This document shows, one piece after another, positions 21,917-32,702 of a DNA stretch of 64,000 bases (position 1 is its first letter; the number at the start of each line of letters is the position of its first letter). Both the position numbers and the translations under genes were made by a program. The notes under the pieces were generated by a model that was not told the origin of the DNA, did not search any database, and saw nothing but the letters and a program-made list of their open reading frames with translations. The DNA comes from Tetramitus jugosus (Eukaryota; Heterolobosea; Eutetramitea; Acrasida; Vahlkampfiidae): assembly GCA_937625935.1 (NCBI GenBank), contig OW569373.1:372001-436000 (forward strand). Reading direction: 5' to 3'.

Positions 21917-24900
21917 TCAATGGTCTTTGATGATGGCACTTTCAGGCTGAGGGCTTGCAACATTGGTTGGACTAGGTGATTTGATAAACTCCTCGAATAC
22001 CTTCTTGAGGGCATCGACGTTGATTGGCTTTGAAATATAGCCATCCATTCCATTTTCGAGACACTTTTCTCTGTAGCCTTGAATGGCGTGAGCTGTCAAT
22101 GCAATGATTGGCGTGTGTCTGTTCATTGGTTTCTCCAACTCTCTAATCTGGGATGTGGCTTCGAAACCACCCATTTCAGGCATTTGAACGTCCATGAGAA
22201 TGAGATCATATTGTTGTTGTCTTGCTGCGGCAACAGCCTCGACACCATTCTGAGCCAATGTCACTCGATAACCAAACTTTGTTTCCAACAGTTTGATGGC
22301 AACCTTTTGATTAATGACGTTGTCTTCAGCAAGCAAAACTTGAACATTGTGTCTTCTTTCAATGAACATATTCGAGTCATGCTCAGACTTCTTTTGTTCC
22401 TGAGGACGGTTATGATTGAATACCTTGAACAGTGCATCCATCAATTCAGATCTACTAATTGGCTTATTCATGAAGTGAGAGATGGATAAATGAGAGTATA
22501 CCTCTACGATGGCTCTGTGAGTTGTCGTGGACAGCATCATGATGATACTTGGCTTCTTGACCGTGTGAGGCAACTTTTTAATTCTCTGAGCCACAGTAAA
22601 ACCGTCAATGTTTGGCATTTGAGCATCCAAGAGCACACAGTCATATGGCTTCTTGTTCTCAATTTGTCTCTCAATCATTGTGACAGCTGCATCACCATCG
22701 TTGACAACATCGGACTGAATCTTCCAATATGTCAATAGTTGTTTCAAGACGTGGCAGCAAGTTGGATTGTCATCCACAATGAGTACTCTTCTGTTGGACA
22801 TGCTGCTCACATCTGGACTATTTTGATTCTTGTCCAGTCCAAACACGGCTGTGAAATAGAAGACGCTTCCCTTGCCTTGTGTGCTTCTTGCCTGCAACTT
22901 ACCCTTCATCAATTCAACGAGTCGAGTAGAGATTGTCAGACCCAAACCTATTATTATTGTAATGAACAGAGATGTTAGAATCATGATGAAGGAACAATAC
23001 ATAAAAAACAGTTATAAGCTTACCTGTACCACCAAACTTTCTCGTAATACTGCCATCGGCTTGTGAGAAGGCTTCGAAAATGACCAAAAGTTTGTCCTCT
23101 GGAATACCAATACCAGTATCGGATACTTCAAAGTACAATTGAACGGATTCAGAGGTAATGGATTCTGTTCTGACCTTGAGAACCACTTCTCCCTGGAATG
23201 TAAACTTGACAGCGTTGCCAATCAAATTGGTAATGACCTGACGCAGACGGATTGGATCACCAATCAGCTTGTCTGGAATGGTTGGATCAATATCGGCAAT
23301 CAGTTCAATATCCTTCTCATCGGCACGTAAGGCAAGTGCCTTGAGTGTATCACCCAGTGTGTCTCTCAATGGGAGTTCAATGTGTTCGATTTCGAGTTTT
23401 CCGGCTTCAATCTTGGAGAAATCGAGAATGTCATTGATAATGGTCATCAGAGCTTGAGAAGAGGAGTGAACAGCCTTTAGATAGTCTCTTGTTTCGCTAC
23501 GCATCTCAGTGTCGAGAGCCAATTCTGTCATACCAATAATACCGTTCATAGGAGTTCTAATTTCGTGAGACATGTTGGCCATAAACTCACTCTTTGCTCT
23601 GTTGGCTTCCGTAGCCAGCGTCTTCTTGATCAACATATCTTTCAATGTGTAAATCATTTCGTTAATGATTGTCTTCAGCGTGTCCATCTCACCATAAGCC
23701 TCAACAGCAATGTATCGAGTAAAATCACCCTTGGTGACAGCAGTGGCCACCTCGGCGATAGCTCTCACCTGACCTGTCAAATTTCGAGCCATCGTGTTCA
23801 CATTATCAGTCAAATCTTTCCAAATTCCATCAACACCCTTGACAACAGCTTGACCACCAAGCTTACCCTCAGTTCCTACTTCGCGAGCCACTCTTGTTAC
23901 TTCTGATGCGAATGAGTTCAATTGAATCACCATCGTGTTAATCGTATTCTTCAATTCCAAGATTTCTCCTTGTACGTTGGCAGTAATCTTCTTGGATAAA
24001 TCACCCTTGGCAACAGCAGTCGTCACCTGTGCAATTTCTCTCACTTGACCGGTCAAATTGGCAGCCATCGTGTTGACATTATCAGTAAGATCTTTCCAGG
24101 TTCCATCAACGCCGGGCACTAAGGCTTGGCCACCCAATTTTCCTTGGGTACCGACTTCGAGAGCCACTCTTGTTACTTCTGAAGCAAAGGAGTTCAATTG
24201 GTCAACCATAGTATTGATGGTGTTCTTCAACTCCAAGATTTCACCCTTAACATCTGCTGTCATAGTCTTGGATAAATCACCTCGAGCTACAGCGGTCGTC
24301 ACTTCAGCAATTTCTCTGACCTGACCCGTCAAATTGGCAGCCATAATATTCACATTGTCCGTCAGATCCTTCCATGTACCGTCAACTCCAGGCACTTGCG
24401 CCTGACCACCCAGTTTTCCTTGAGTACCGACTTCGAGAGCCACTCTCGTTACTTCATTGGCGAATGAATTCAACTGATCCACCATCGTGTTAATCGTGTT
24501 CTTCAATTCCAAAATCTCACCCTTCACGTCCGCAGTCATCTTCTTTGATAAATCACCACGAGCAACAGCAGTTGTAACCTCAGCAATGGCACGCACTTGG
24601 CCCGTCAAATTGGCAGCCATAGTGTTCACATTATCCGTCAAATCCTTCCAAGTTCCACCAACACCAGCAACCTGGGCTTGACCACCCAGTTTACCCTCAG
24701 TACCGACTTCTCTGGCCACTCTTGTCACTTCACTCGCAAAGGAGTTCAATTGATCAACCATGATATTGATAGTGTTCTTAAGTTCGAGAATTTCACCCTT
24801 GACATCAGCCGTAATCTTCTTTGACAAGTCACCCTTGGCGACAGCGGTAGTGACTTGAGCAATTTCTCTGACTTGGCCTGTCAAGTTAGCAGCCATAATG

Positions 24901-30900: not shown

Positions 30901-32702
30901 TCACCCTTAGCGACAGCCGTAGTGACTTGAGCAATTTCTCTGACCTGACCCGTCAGATTGGCAGCCATGATATTGACATTGTCCGTCAAATCTTTCCATG
31001 TGCCATCCACACCAGGCACTAAAGCCTGACCTCCCAGTTTTCCTTGAGTACCCACTTCAAGAGCCACTCTTGTTACTTCGGAGGCGAAGGAATTCAATTG
31101 GTCAACCATTGTATTAATGGTATTCTTGAGCTCCAAGATCTCACCTTTCACGTCCGCAGTCATTGTCTTTGACAAGTCACCTCGAGCAACAGCAGTCGTC
31201 ACTTCAGCAATAGCACGCACTTGGCCTGTCAAATTGGCAGCCATCGTGTTGACATTGTCCGTCAAATCTTTCCAGGTACCGTCAACATCCTTGACATGAG
31301 CTTGACCACCCAGTTTTCCTTCTGTGCCGACTTCTCTGGCCACTCTCGTGACCTCACTTGCAAAGGAATTCAGTTGATCCACCATCGTATTGATCGTGTT
31401 CTTTAGTTCTAGGATTTCACCCTGCACATTTGCAGTAATCTTCTTTGACAAATCACCCTTGGCAACAGCAGTCGTCACCTGTGCAATTTCTCTCACTTGT
31501 CCCGTTAAATTAGCAGCCATGATATTGACATTGTCTGTTAGGTCCTTCCATGTACCAGCTACTCCCGGAACTTGAGCTTGACCTCCTAGTTTACCATATG
31601 TGCCCACTTCGAGAGCGACACGAGTGACTTCATTTGCAAAGGAATTGAGTTGATCCACCATGATATTAATAGTGTTCTTAAACTCTAATATTTCTCCATT
31701 GGCCTCCGCAGTCATCTTCTTTGAAAGATCACCTTCAGCAACAGCGGTCGTCACTTCTGCGACAGCACGCACTTGTTGCGTCACTGTAGAAACCATTGTG
31801 TTCACATTGATTGTCAAATCCTTCCATGCACCGTCCATTTGTTCGGGACATGCCTGTATTCCGAGTCGTCCCTCCTTGACCACTGCACAAACGACATCAG
31901 TAATCTCAACAATGAACCGATTGAGCTTATCCATCAGTGAACTTACACTATTATTGATTCTCTTGTATTCACCCTTGAGTTCCATATCATCATCATCACT
32001 ACTACACAGTGATGATGATGATGATTCTCCATCACTTTCATCATCTGATTCTCGTTGTTGTTGTTGATTCTTTTGTTGTCTCTGCTTCTTCTTGTTCAAA
32101 TTGAGATTGTGAGACAAATTACCGAGACCTACTTGATCAATCACAGACACAATCTCAGTAATGGGATTCGTAATGGAATCAAGTGCGCTATTGAATGAAT
32201 CGATACAGTGATACCAACAATTATGATGGGTAGTGTTGTCTTCTTCTTCTTCTTCTGATGACGGTGATGATGACGATGGTGATGATGGTGATGATGGTGA
32301 TGATAATGGTGATGTTGACCTCTGCTTTGCTCTCTCATAAAATAATCCTTCGTTGCCAATGCAGTCTCTCACACGATCAAACTCTTGAATCATCTCTGTT
32401 CGGTTCAATACCATGGCATTCATCTCGTAAGCCAACTCTAGGTCAATTCCAGTCAATTGAGTGGTTGAGAAGAGGCATGATGGATCATTACCTGTATTGT
32501 ATCTATGAAGAGCGTCGAGTATGACTTCCTTGTTCATGTCGTCAATGTGTATCGTTTCCGTAGCTATAGTTGATGATGATGATGTTGTTGTTGTATTGCT
32601 GTTCGTGGTGGTTGTTGTTGTTTGGTCAATCGTCGTTGATGTTGTAGTTGTTGTTGTATCATCGCTTGTGGATGTTGTGGTAATGGTCGTTTTTTTGGCC
32701 AT
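21917..32702 (-). CDS. Giant cytosolic hybrid histidine kinase with about 60 HAMP modules
   Basis: Two exons, 23024-32702 and 21917-22947. The 76-nt intron (22948-23023; GTAAGC...AATAATAG) splits the ATP-binding G2 box and splicing restores GGTG-LGLT. The product is about 3569 residues. An N-terminal Thr/Ser-rich segment with no signal peptide or membrane span leads, through a first HAMP-like segment, into 29 double-HAMP units (residues about 318-2985) and a final HAMP. The transmitter has HisKA with MANMSHEIRTPMNG (phospho-acceptor His about 3060) and a HATPase with NLIGNAVKF, DTGIGIP and FEAFSQADGS. Two receivers follow. The first has VDDN, LLDAQMP and NKP; the second has AEDN, LMDVQMP, LTAHA and SKP. 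All core catalytic residues are present. The layout matches group III (Nik1/Os-1-type) fungal osmosensing kinases, which carry about five such repeats, so this one is enormously expanded. Osmotic or stress sensing is inferred from that family. Confidence 0.93.
23748..31751 (-). repeat. 29 tandem 276-bp double-HAMP units
   Basis: Starting from the TTAV codons at 31751, the array contains 29 units of exactly 276 bp (92 residues); the next, degenerate HAMP begins at 23747, so no net indel has accumulated over 8004 bp. Each unit carries two HAMP modules: TTAVAxGDLSKK...GEILELKNTIN...DQLNSFASE and VTRVAxEVGTEGKLGGQ...GTWKDLTDNVN...NLTGQVR. Units fall into recurrent subtypes: those ending REIAQV are usually followed by AKGDLSKKITAN, and those ending RAIAEV by ARGDLSKKMTAD. 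Units 6-8 and 16-18 share the rare variants LVDGVGG, IAVDVKG and AGEVGTEG. Confidence 0.95.

Follow-up and report, generated by a model that had tools for sequence, protein, structure and literature searches.

A hybrid histidine kinase with 30 tandem double-HAMP units and candidate cyclic-nucleotide phosphodiesterase outputs

Results

Architecture of the kinase gene

The window analysed here is a stretch of 64,000 nucleotides, positions 372001-436000 of contig C30, in a genome of 26.35 Mb assembled into 56 contigs. Its interval 32702..21917 corresponds to exactly one gene, with both bounds coinciding, which encodes a hybrid histidine kinase carrying a long array of tandem HAMP modules (a poly-HAMP kinase). 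The gene lies on the minus strand, begins with an ATG at 32702 and terminates with a stop codon ending at 21917. Two overlapping open reading frames (ORFs; 32702-22914 and 23002-21917) are joined by a single intron, and the spliced product contains 3569 amino acids and is free of inner stops. The gene contains the following features.

21917..32702, minus strand: the entire poly-HAMP hybrid histidine kinase gene, assembled from two overlapping ORFs by removal of one GT..AG intron
23024..32702, minus strand: exon 1, with the N-terminus, all HAMPs, HisKA and most of HATPase (ORF join)
32535..32702, minus strand: Thr/Ser-rich low-complexity N-terminal tail, residues 1-56 (sequence composition)
31926..32534, minus strand: three N-terminal HAMP-like modules and two low-complexity inserts, residues 57-259 (profile match)
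23646..31925, minus strand: array of 30 units of 276 bp or 92 residues, residues 260-3019 (Tandem Repeats Finder, profiles, register)
31650..31925, minus strand: unit 1, diverged (unit-to-unit identity)
23646..23921, minus strand: unit 30, kinase-proximal (cross-species unit comparison)
23400..23597, minus strand: HisKA (DHp) with the H-box SHEIRTP (domain match, motif)
22850..23261, minus strand: HATPase_c, split by the intron (domain match, motif)
22948..23023, minus strand: intron of 76 bp, GTAAGC...TAATAG, predicted from sequence, with GGTGLGL regained on splicing
21917..22947, minus strand: exon 2, with the HATPase end and two receivers (ORF join, domain matches)
22430..22786, minus strand: receiver 1, catalytic residues kept (domain match, residues)
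21998..22339, minus strand: receiver 2, catalytic residues kept (domain match, residues)

An earlier note on this DNA had described a poly-HAMP hybrid kinase with a complete transmitter and two receivers, and this description is borne out. The HisKA H-box is intact, as are the N, G1, F and G2 motifs of the HATPase domain; removal of the 76-bp intron restores the GGTGLGL sequence of the HATPase domain and thus completes the transmitter. Both receivers retain the acidic pair, the phospho-acceptor aspartate and the lysine.

The HAMP array and the N-terminal modules

Tandem Repeats Finder reported a 276-bp period in 29.1 copies with 0% indels at 23721-31757. When placed in register, all 30 units are exactly 92 residues long, and each consists of one divergent and one canonical HAMP. 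The exact unit length given in the earlier note therefore stands, while its count of 29 has to be raised to 30. Pfam models matched 29 HAMP_2 stretches and 28 HAMP stretches in exon 1, and a whole-genome search with PF00672 returned 29 matches within the kinase gene, spaced at 29 consecutive 276-bp steps. Some other Pfam families exceeded the whole-protein cut-off in exon 1 by summing over repeats, none of them with a single passing stretch. The two ends of the array are distinct: unit 1 shares an amino acid identity of at most 0.66 with any other unit, and unit 30 carries its own kinase-proximal ending.

Ahead of the array, a profile built from the N-terminal HAMPs of six relatives matched residues 57-128 (i-Evalue 3.9e-7) and residues 161-215 (i-Evalue 7.4e-13) in a one-sequence search. 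A third HAMP-like module at residues 240-261 is weakly supported (i-Evalue 0.017). Residues 57-259 can be aligned with the HAMPs at the N-terminus of relatives from bacteria, metagenomes and dictyostelids. Together with the 30 double units, these three predicted modules would bring the HAMP total to about 63, in place of the earlier figure of about 60. No separate sensor domain was recognised by Pfam on the exons of the spliced gene or by the profile of N-terminal HAMPs, and no transmembrane segment was found (best 19-residue Kyte-Doolittle mean 1.45). By hydropathy, the kinase shares with fungal group III (Nik1) kinases a cytosolic form that lacks a transmembrane segment. Cysteine-based sensing by the rod, as in the Drk1 model, was considered and rejected, since units 2-30 contain no cysteine and unit 1 contains two.

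A 276-residue stretch of the array matches solved HAMP-GCN4 fusions, namely 9trk (E 3.4e-89, best stretch 158 residues) and 9trj (E 1.7e-41), which supports the predicted HAMP coiled-coil fold of the array. The same stretch matches the Aer2 structure 3vol weakly (E 6.6e-4).

Age of the array and constraint on its units

The core units 2-29 share a mean identity of 0.78 in DNA and 0.89 in amino acids, with 0.94 for the top DNA pair, and the longest exact repeat within the array is 134 bp. Across the 378 pairs of these units, the mean proportion of differing silent sites (pS) is 0.684 and that of differing replacement sites (pN) is 0.076, giving a pN/pS of 0.11 with silent sites near saturation. 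This suggests that most units split long ago and have since been held by purifying selection, and that a few copies are more recent. The more recent ones include units 7, 8, 12 and 13, which resemble units 17, 18, 22 and 23 at 0.94, 0.86, 0.85 and 0.93, respectively; units 7 and 17 form the youngest pair (pS 0.16). Exact repeats no longer than 134 bp, near-saturated silent sites and the low pN/pS together indicate an old array that is under constraint and improbable as a product of misassembly. With an exon 1 that is a 9.7-kb open frame and a pN/pS of 0.11, the kinase gene lies far beyond chance.

The core units fall into distinct types. The residue at position 13 predicts that at position 54 in 28 of 28 core units (14 Leu-Glu, 11 Arg-Ala and 3 Gly-Ala), and a second set of linked residues comprises positions 57, 64, 74 and 76. 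Residues 13 and 54 would meet at the joint between adjacent HAMPs. The 13-54 pairing also holds in the related kinases P0125 (4/4) and Cavenderia (3/3 read) and fails in P0132; columns were read without units that contain an indel, leaving 25 of 26 units in P0001 and 3 of 4 in Cavenderia. As a family-wide rule the pairing was rejected, as the compared fungal and bacterial proteins carry other residues at these positions.

The order of the types was compared with shuffled orders. Repeated blocks of three number 10 against a shuffle mean of 2.4, and none of 5000 shuffles gave as many. The type changes at 21 of 27 steps (p 0.04), barely above the shuffles, and strict alternation was not retained. 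Of the alternating unit types suggested earlier, the distinct types are real, with linked residues, and strict alternation has weak support.

Relatives and their array lengths

At least 7999 proteins were scored in a search that used the array and kinase as query, and units were counted in the 120 matches listed, using a profile built from the window's own units; candidates ranged from about 1800 to 5700 residues. The 120 matches listed carry 12-26 units with a median of 16. Among them, 27 named fungal rows (Mucoromycota and Basidiobolus) have 15-26 units, including Helicostylum with 26, Absidia with 23, five proteins of Mucor, Apophysomyces and Radiomyces with 22, and Basidiobolus with 20 and 18. 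The 14 named bacterial rows have 15-16 units, one EukProt row has 14, and 78 rows bearing no usable organism name have 12-18. The 30 units of the window kinase are the highest number among the matches listed, and a long array as such is not unique to it. The earlier note had taken about five repeats in fungi as its yardstick, which is misleading in view of the fungal and bacterial counts. Among the papers listed by literature searches, no title or abstract opening describes HAMP arrays of this length.

Countable protist or metagenomic relatives are smaller, with 6 units in P0132, 6 in P0128, 4 in Cavenderia and 14 in P0105; P0121, P0124 and P0125 begin inside the array and were uncountable. 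Between two related fungal proteins, unit number differs: Helicostylum P0001 has 26 units and Mucor hiemalis P0005 has 22, and their kinase cores are 95% identical. This argues against a precise function of length.

Units were further compared across species in a set of 205 from 13 proteins, comprising the window's 30 and 175 from 12 others. For units 1-29 the closest unit always lies within the window kinase and never among the 175 others. Unit 30 shows an amino acid identity of 0.92 to the last unit of P0125, 0.90 to that of P0132 and 0.80 to that of Cavenderia, against 0.74 to other window units. Judged from these unit sequences, the pattern is consistent with inner units having been amplified independently in several lineages while the kinase-proximal unit was conserved.

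Phylogeny of the kinase core

A tree of kinase cores was built by a quick method from 61 rows chosen among 243 proteins, with ascomycetes left out; 10 of the 243 proteins, P0128 among them, lacked the H-box pattern used. The window kinase groups with P0121, P0124 and P0125 with a Shimodaira-Hasegawa-like approximate likelihood-ratio support (SH-aLRT) of 99, and this group of four joins six further metagenomic or EukProt rows, again at 99. A wider set of 17 rows that includes Cavenderia, P0105 and others has a support of 91. The 13 fungal rows (Mucoromycota and Basidiobolus) form a clade that excludes the window kinase (SH-aLRT 99), and 17 bacterial or unnamed poly-HAMP rows form a separate clade (SH-aLRT 100). 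Core identity to the window kinase is 72% for P0132, 67% for P0105, 61% for Cavenderia, 58% for Helicostylum, 56% for Basidiobolus and 40-44% for three bacteria. This tree places the window kinase among metagenomic, EukProt and dictyostelid sequences and outside the fungal poly-HAMP kinases. A fungal origin of the window is not supported by it. Membership of the kinase domain in the fungal clade, a trait of Nik1, is accordingly absent in this quick tree with its long branches and omitted ascomycetes.

Phosphorelay partners in the same genome

The earlier note had also proposed a search for the partners of the kinase, and candidates were found that point to cyclic-nucleotide phosphodiesterases (PDEs). 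Genome-wide searches gave 30 matches to HisKA, 40 to the receiver (REC) domain and 3 to HPt. Among the 40 receiver matches, 33 have their start no more than 4 kb from a HisKA match, 5 lie at three REC-PDE loci and 2 lie in a HATPase-REC locus recognised by eye. None of the 40 matches is a free-standing receiver outside kinase-like or PDE loci, in a search that intron-split or strongly diverged receivers could escape and that did not extend to Hog1. As the 30 HisKA matches share three HPt matches, the kinase would be linked to the phosphodiesterases by elimination only.

The three HPt matches correspond to two PDE-HPt genes and one HPt protein of 294 residues. The gene at C5:524615-527620 encodes REC, PDEase_I, a receiver-like stretch and HPt in a single open frame of 1002; the receiver-like stretch is weak, with a best Protein Data Bank match at E 0.0018. 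This fusion resembles Dictyostelium RegA and RdeA joined in one protein. At C12 (about 534.9-537.6 kb), PDEase_I, HPt and one receiver piece share an open frame of 848, and a second receiver piece lies just upstream. At C17, receiver pieces lie beside the PDE in other frames with no HPt match, and a fusion is suggested by nearness. REC followed by PDEase_I, a trait of the RegA pathway, is therefore present in the genome, in one ORF at C5, with one receiver piece in frame at C12 and by nearness only at C17. The 294-residue HPt protein (C11:20961-21206; L039:1474-2358, minus strand) is 28% identical to the end of the C5 protein (E 3e-31). Its N-terminal part resembles the C5 receiver-like stretch.

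RegA is a REC-PDE protein that acts under histidine kinases in Dictyostelium, and RegA genes occur in Acanthamoeba and Naegleria (PMC3906536, PMC4399386). The passages on RegA in these two papers do not mention an HPt fusion. More widely, no title or abstract opening among the papers listed names a RegA-HPt fusion; this does not show its absence, and no sequence search for such fusions was made elsewhere.

The nearest solved relatives of the phosphodiesterase are PDE9A, then PDE4. The genome gave 52 cyclase matches, some of which are fragments of a single gene, and an ORF on C24 carries two cNMP domains. These predicted cyclases and the two-domain ORF would complete a plausible cyclic-nucleotide circuit.

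Neighbouring genes and genomic context

The gene adjoining the kinase (window 20140-21879) gave two matches. Elsewhere in the window are an ORF of 1278 residues with teneurin-type EGF repeats (11476-15312, minus strand), a protein kinase bearing an EDR1/CTR1 peptidase-like domain (42333-44321, plus strand), a pentatricopeptide-repeat (PPR) protein (47244-48884, minus strand) and a transposase-like ORF of the DDE_Tnp_4 family (61048-62112, minus strand). A DYW-type PPR ORF is present on C52 of the genome; DYW proteins have been named in Naegleria and Physarum (PMC4758236).

Other HAMP genes in the genome include a nucleotide cyclase at C39:269926-270783 (L003), in which a CHASE4 match is weak and below the cut-off, and three further HAMP loci on C31, on C3 and at C30:284231. 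Three hybrid-kinase loci on C32 (58669-60270, 62580-64163 and 84858-86459), two of them adjacent, have an equal HisKA score of 61 bits, which suggests duplication. The genome also holds 12 dynein heavy-chain loci (13 matches) and 41 Zn-cluster matches. The dynein heavy-chain loci, the DYW PPR ORF and the long uninterrupted ORFs suggest that the host is a flagellated protist, perhaps a heterolobosean, with a probably intron-poor genome; the Zn-cluster matches do not decide the question.

Discussion

The preferred reading and the points against it

The array is real, well maintained and the longest among the matches listed, and it is not a new device. The reading that we favour, and hold to be probable, is that the gene encodes a soluble poly-HAMP hybrid kinase resembling Nik1 and other group III kinases, in which the HAMP rod biases the kinase and whose output is a RegA-like phosphodiesterase rather than Hog1. 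Two parallel chains would wind into a coiled-coil rod of alternating divergent and canonical HAMPs, with a length of roughly 150 nm as estimated from helix length (about 60 HAMPs of 2.5-2.7 nm each). In a protein with no separate recognised sensor domain, the packing state of this rod may bias the DHp and kinase domains between autokinase and phosphatase. For fungal group III kinases, a kinase-to-phosphatase switch and a need for the HAMP repeats have been described (PMC6433957). The kinase receivers would hand phosphate to an HPt domain, which would relay it to a RegA-like receiver-phosphodiesterase. The likely output is therefore cyclic-nucleotide hydrolysis, which would govern cAMP or cGMP levels and, perhaps, the activity of protein kinase A. 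In-frame duplication of blocks would generate and spread the inner units, leaving their number only loosely set, and the kinase-proximal unit may serve as a conserved coupling piece.

Several points weigh against this reading. An AlphaFold monomer model of three units has a mean predicted local distance difference test score of 40.8 and gives nothing beyond a helix pattern. The 4-kb distance used to assign receivers to HisKA matches denotes nearness rather than a gene model; the search could have overlooked receivers that are interrupted by introns or highly diverged, and 30 HisKA matches share the three HPt matches. The tree has long end branches, among them that of P0122 (3.04) inside the 17-row set that ties Cavenderia to the window kinase, and a branch of 3.03 leads to the bacterial rows.

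Alternative explanations

The alternative that survives best is that the extra units are mostly passive, with duplication lengthening a tolerated spacer, only the first and last few HAMPs signalling and the length itself functionless. This is possible, if somewhat unlikely. It accords with the variation from 26 to 22 units on 95% identical cores in Helicostylum P0001 and Mucor hiemalis P0005, with the smaller arrays of the countable protist and metagenomic relatives, with the visible repeated blocks of unit types and with the last unit being the one conserved across species. What speaks most strongly against a purely passive spacer is the purifying selection over units 2-29 (pN/pS 0.11), and the 92-residue length in 30 of 30 units and the linked residues in 28 of 28 core units likewise speak against free decay, although selection for coiled-coil folding could explain part of the constraint on inner units.

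A mechanical or osmotic sensor, in which a rod of about 150 nm anchored at its N-terminus would sense crowding, tension or cell volume, is unlikely. Fungal group III kinases do act in osmotic signalling (PMC11253588), and no other sensor domain was recognised in the kinase. However, neither a membrane segment nor a binding domain was found by Pfam and hydropathy, and a calibrated strain gauge would not be expected to vary in length among relatives; the 26 and 22 units on 95% identical cores are the strongest argument against any ruler or strain-gauge role. A further proposal, which we regard as doubtful, would make the array a selected long-range allosteric line, in which Leu13/Glu54 and Arg or Gly13/Ala54 types in non-random order along the 150-nm rod might integrate input from end to end and so determine the balance of kinase and phosphatase activity by which a fused RegA-HPt cAMP or cGMP phosphodiesterase is driven.

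That the kinase is a Nik1 enzyme of the fungal type which feeds a Ypd1-Ssk1-Hog1 cascade is improbable. The domain order and the repeat are alike, some metagenomic relatives are annotated as NIK1 and an HPt protein is present in the genome; against this, the kinase lies outside the fungal clade, and 0 of 40 receiver matches lie away from kinase-like or PDE loci, Hog1 not having been searched. Inflation of the unit number by the assembler, for which tandem arrays are in general hazardous, is very improbable given a longest exact repeat of 134 bp, core units that average 0.78 in DNA identity and peak at 0.94, and a 26.3-Mb genome in 56 contigs.

Significance

Solved and engineered HAMP chains have a few modules each, and Aer2 has three concatenated HAMPs (PMC3570549). 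With about 63 modules and unit types that can be defined, the natural chain described here, together with relatives that carry 4-26 units on related kinases, makes the reach of the HAMP switch and the weight of unit number testable. Kinases of such build have been stated to be fungal-specific (PMC11253588); the window kinase, together with those of Cavenderia and bacteria, adds to the evidence against this view. The soluble poly-HAMP kinase favoured here also ties one such enzyme to a genome whose detectable phosphorelay outputs are cyclic-nucleotide phosphodiesterases.

Comparison with known systems

Among solved structures, the units of 9trk align closely with the window units over 158 residues. 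Unlike the window array, 9trk and 9trj are short GCN4 fusions, and the match to Aer2 (3vol) is weak.

Among kinases, Helicostylum pulchrum P0001 (3218 residues) and other Mucoromycota and Basidiobolus proteins share the 92-residue di-HAMP unit, HisKA, HATPase and receiver. They differ in having at most 26 units rather than 30, in cores that are 56-58% identical (two compared), in forming a separate clade and in carrying other residues at the type positions.

The bacterial poly-HAMP hybrid kinases, such as those of Solibacter usitatus (P0108) and Caenimonas (P0064), share the di-HAMP unit, with a local identity of 72-80% in named rows, and the N-terminal HAMP start. They have 15-16 units in the 14 named rows, many have GAF domains, and their cores are 40-44% identical to that of the window kinase (three compared). 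In P0043, P0064 and P0108 the HAMP units are 75-80% identical to those of the window by best local match, above the fungal units, while the cores stand at 40-44%. The array and the kinase of these bacterial relatives seem to have evolved at very different speeds or to have different histories.

Cavenderia fasciculata P0155 and EukProt P0105 share the di-HAMP unit, alignable N-terminal HAMPs and the larger tree set (SH-aLRT 91) with the window kinase, but have just 4 and 14 units. The ascomycete group III kinases (Nik1, Os-1, TcsC and Drk1) likewise combine HAMP repeats with a hybrid kinase (PMC4965123, PMC11253588). TcsC and Bos1 have six HAMPs each, against about 63 in the window kinase, and the output runs through Ypd1 and Hog1.

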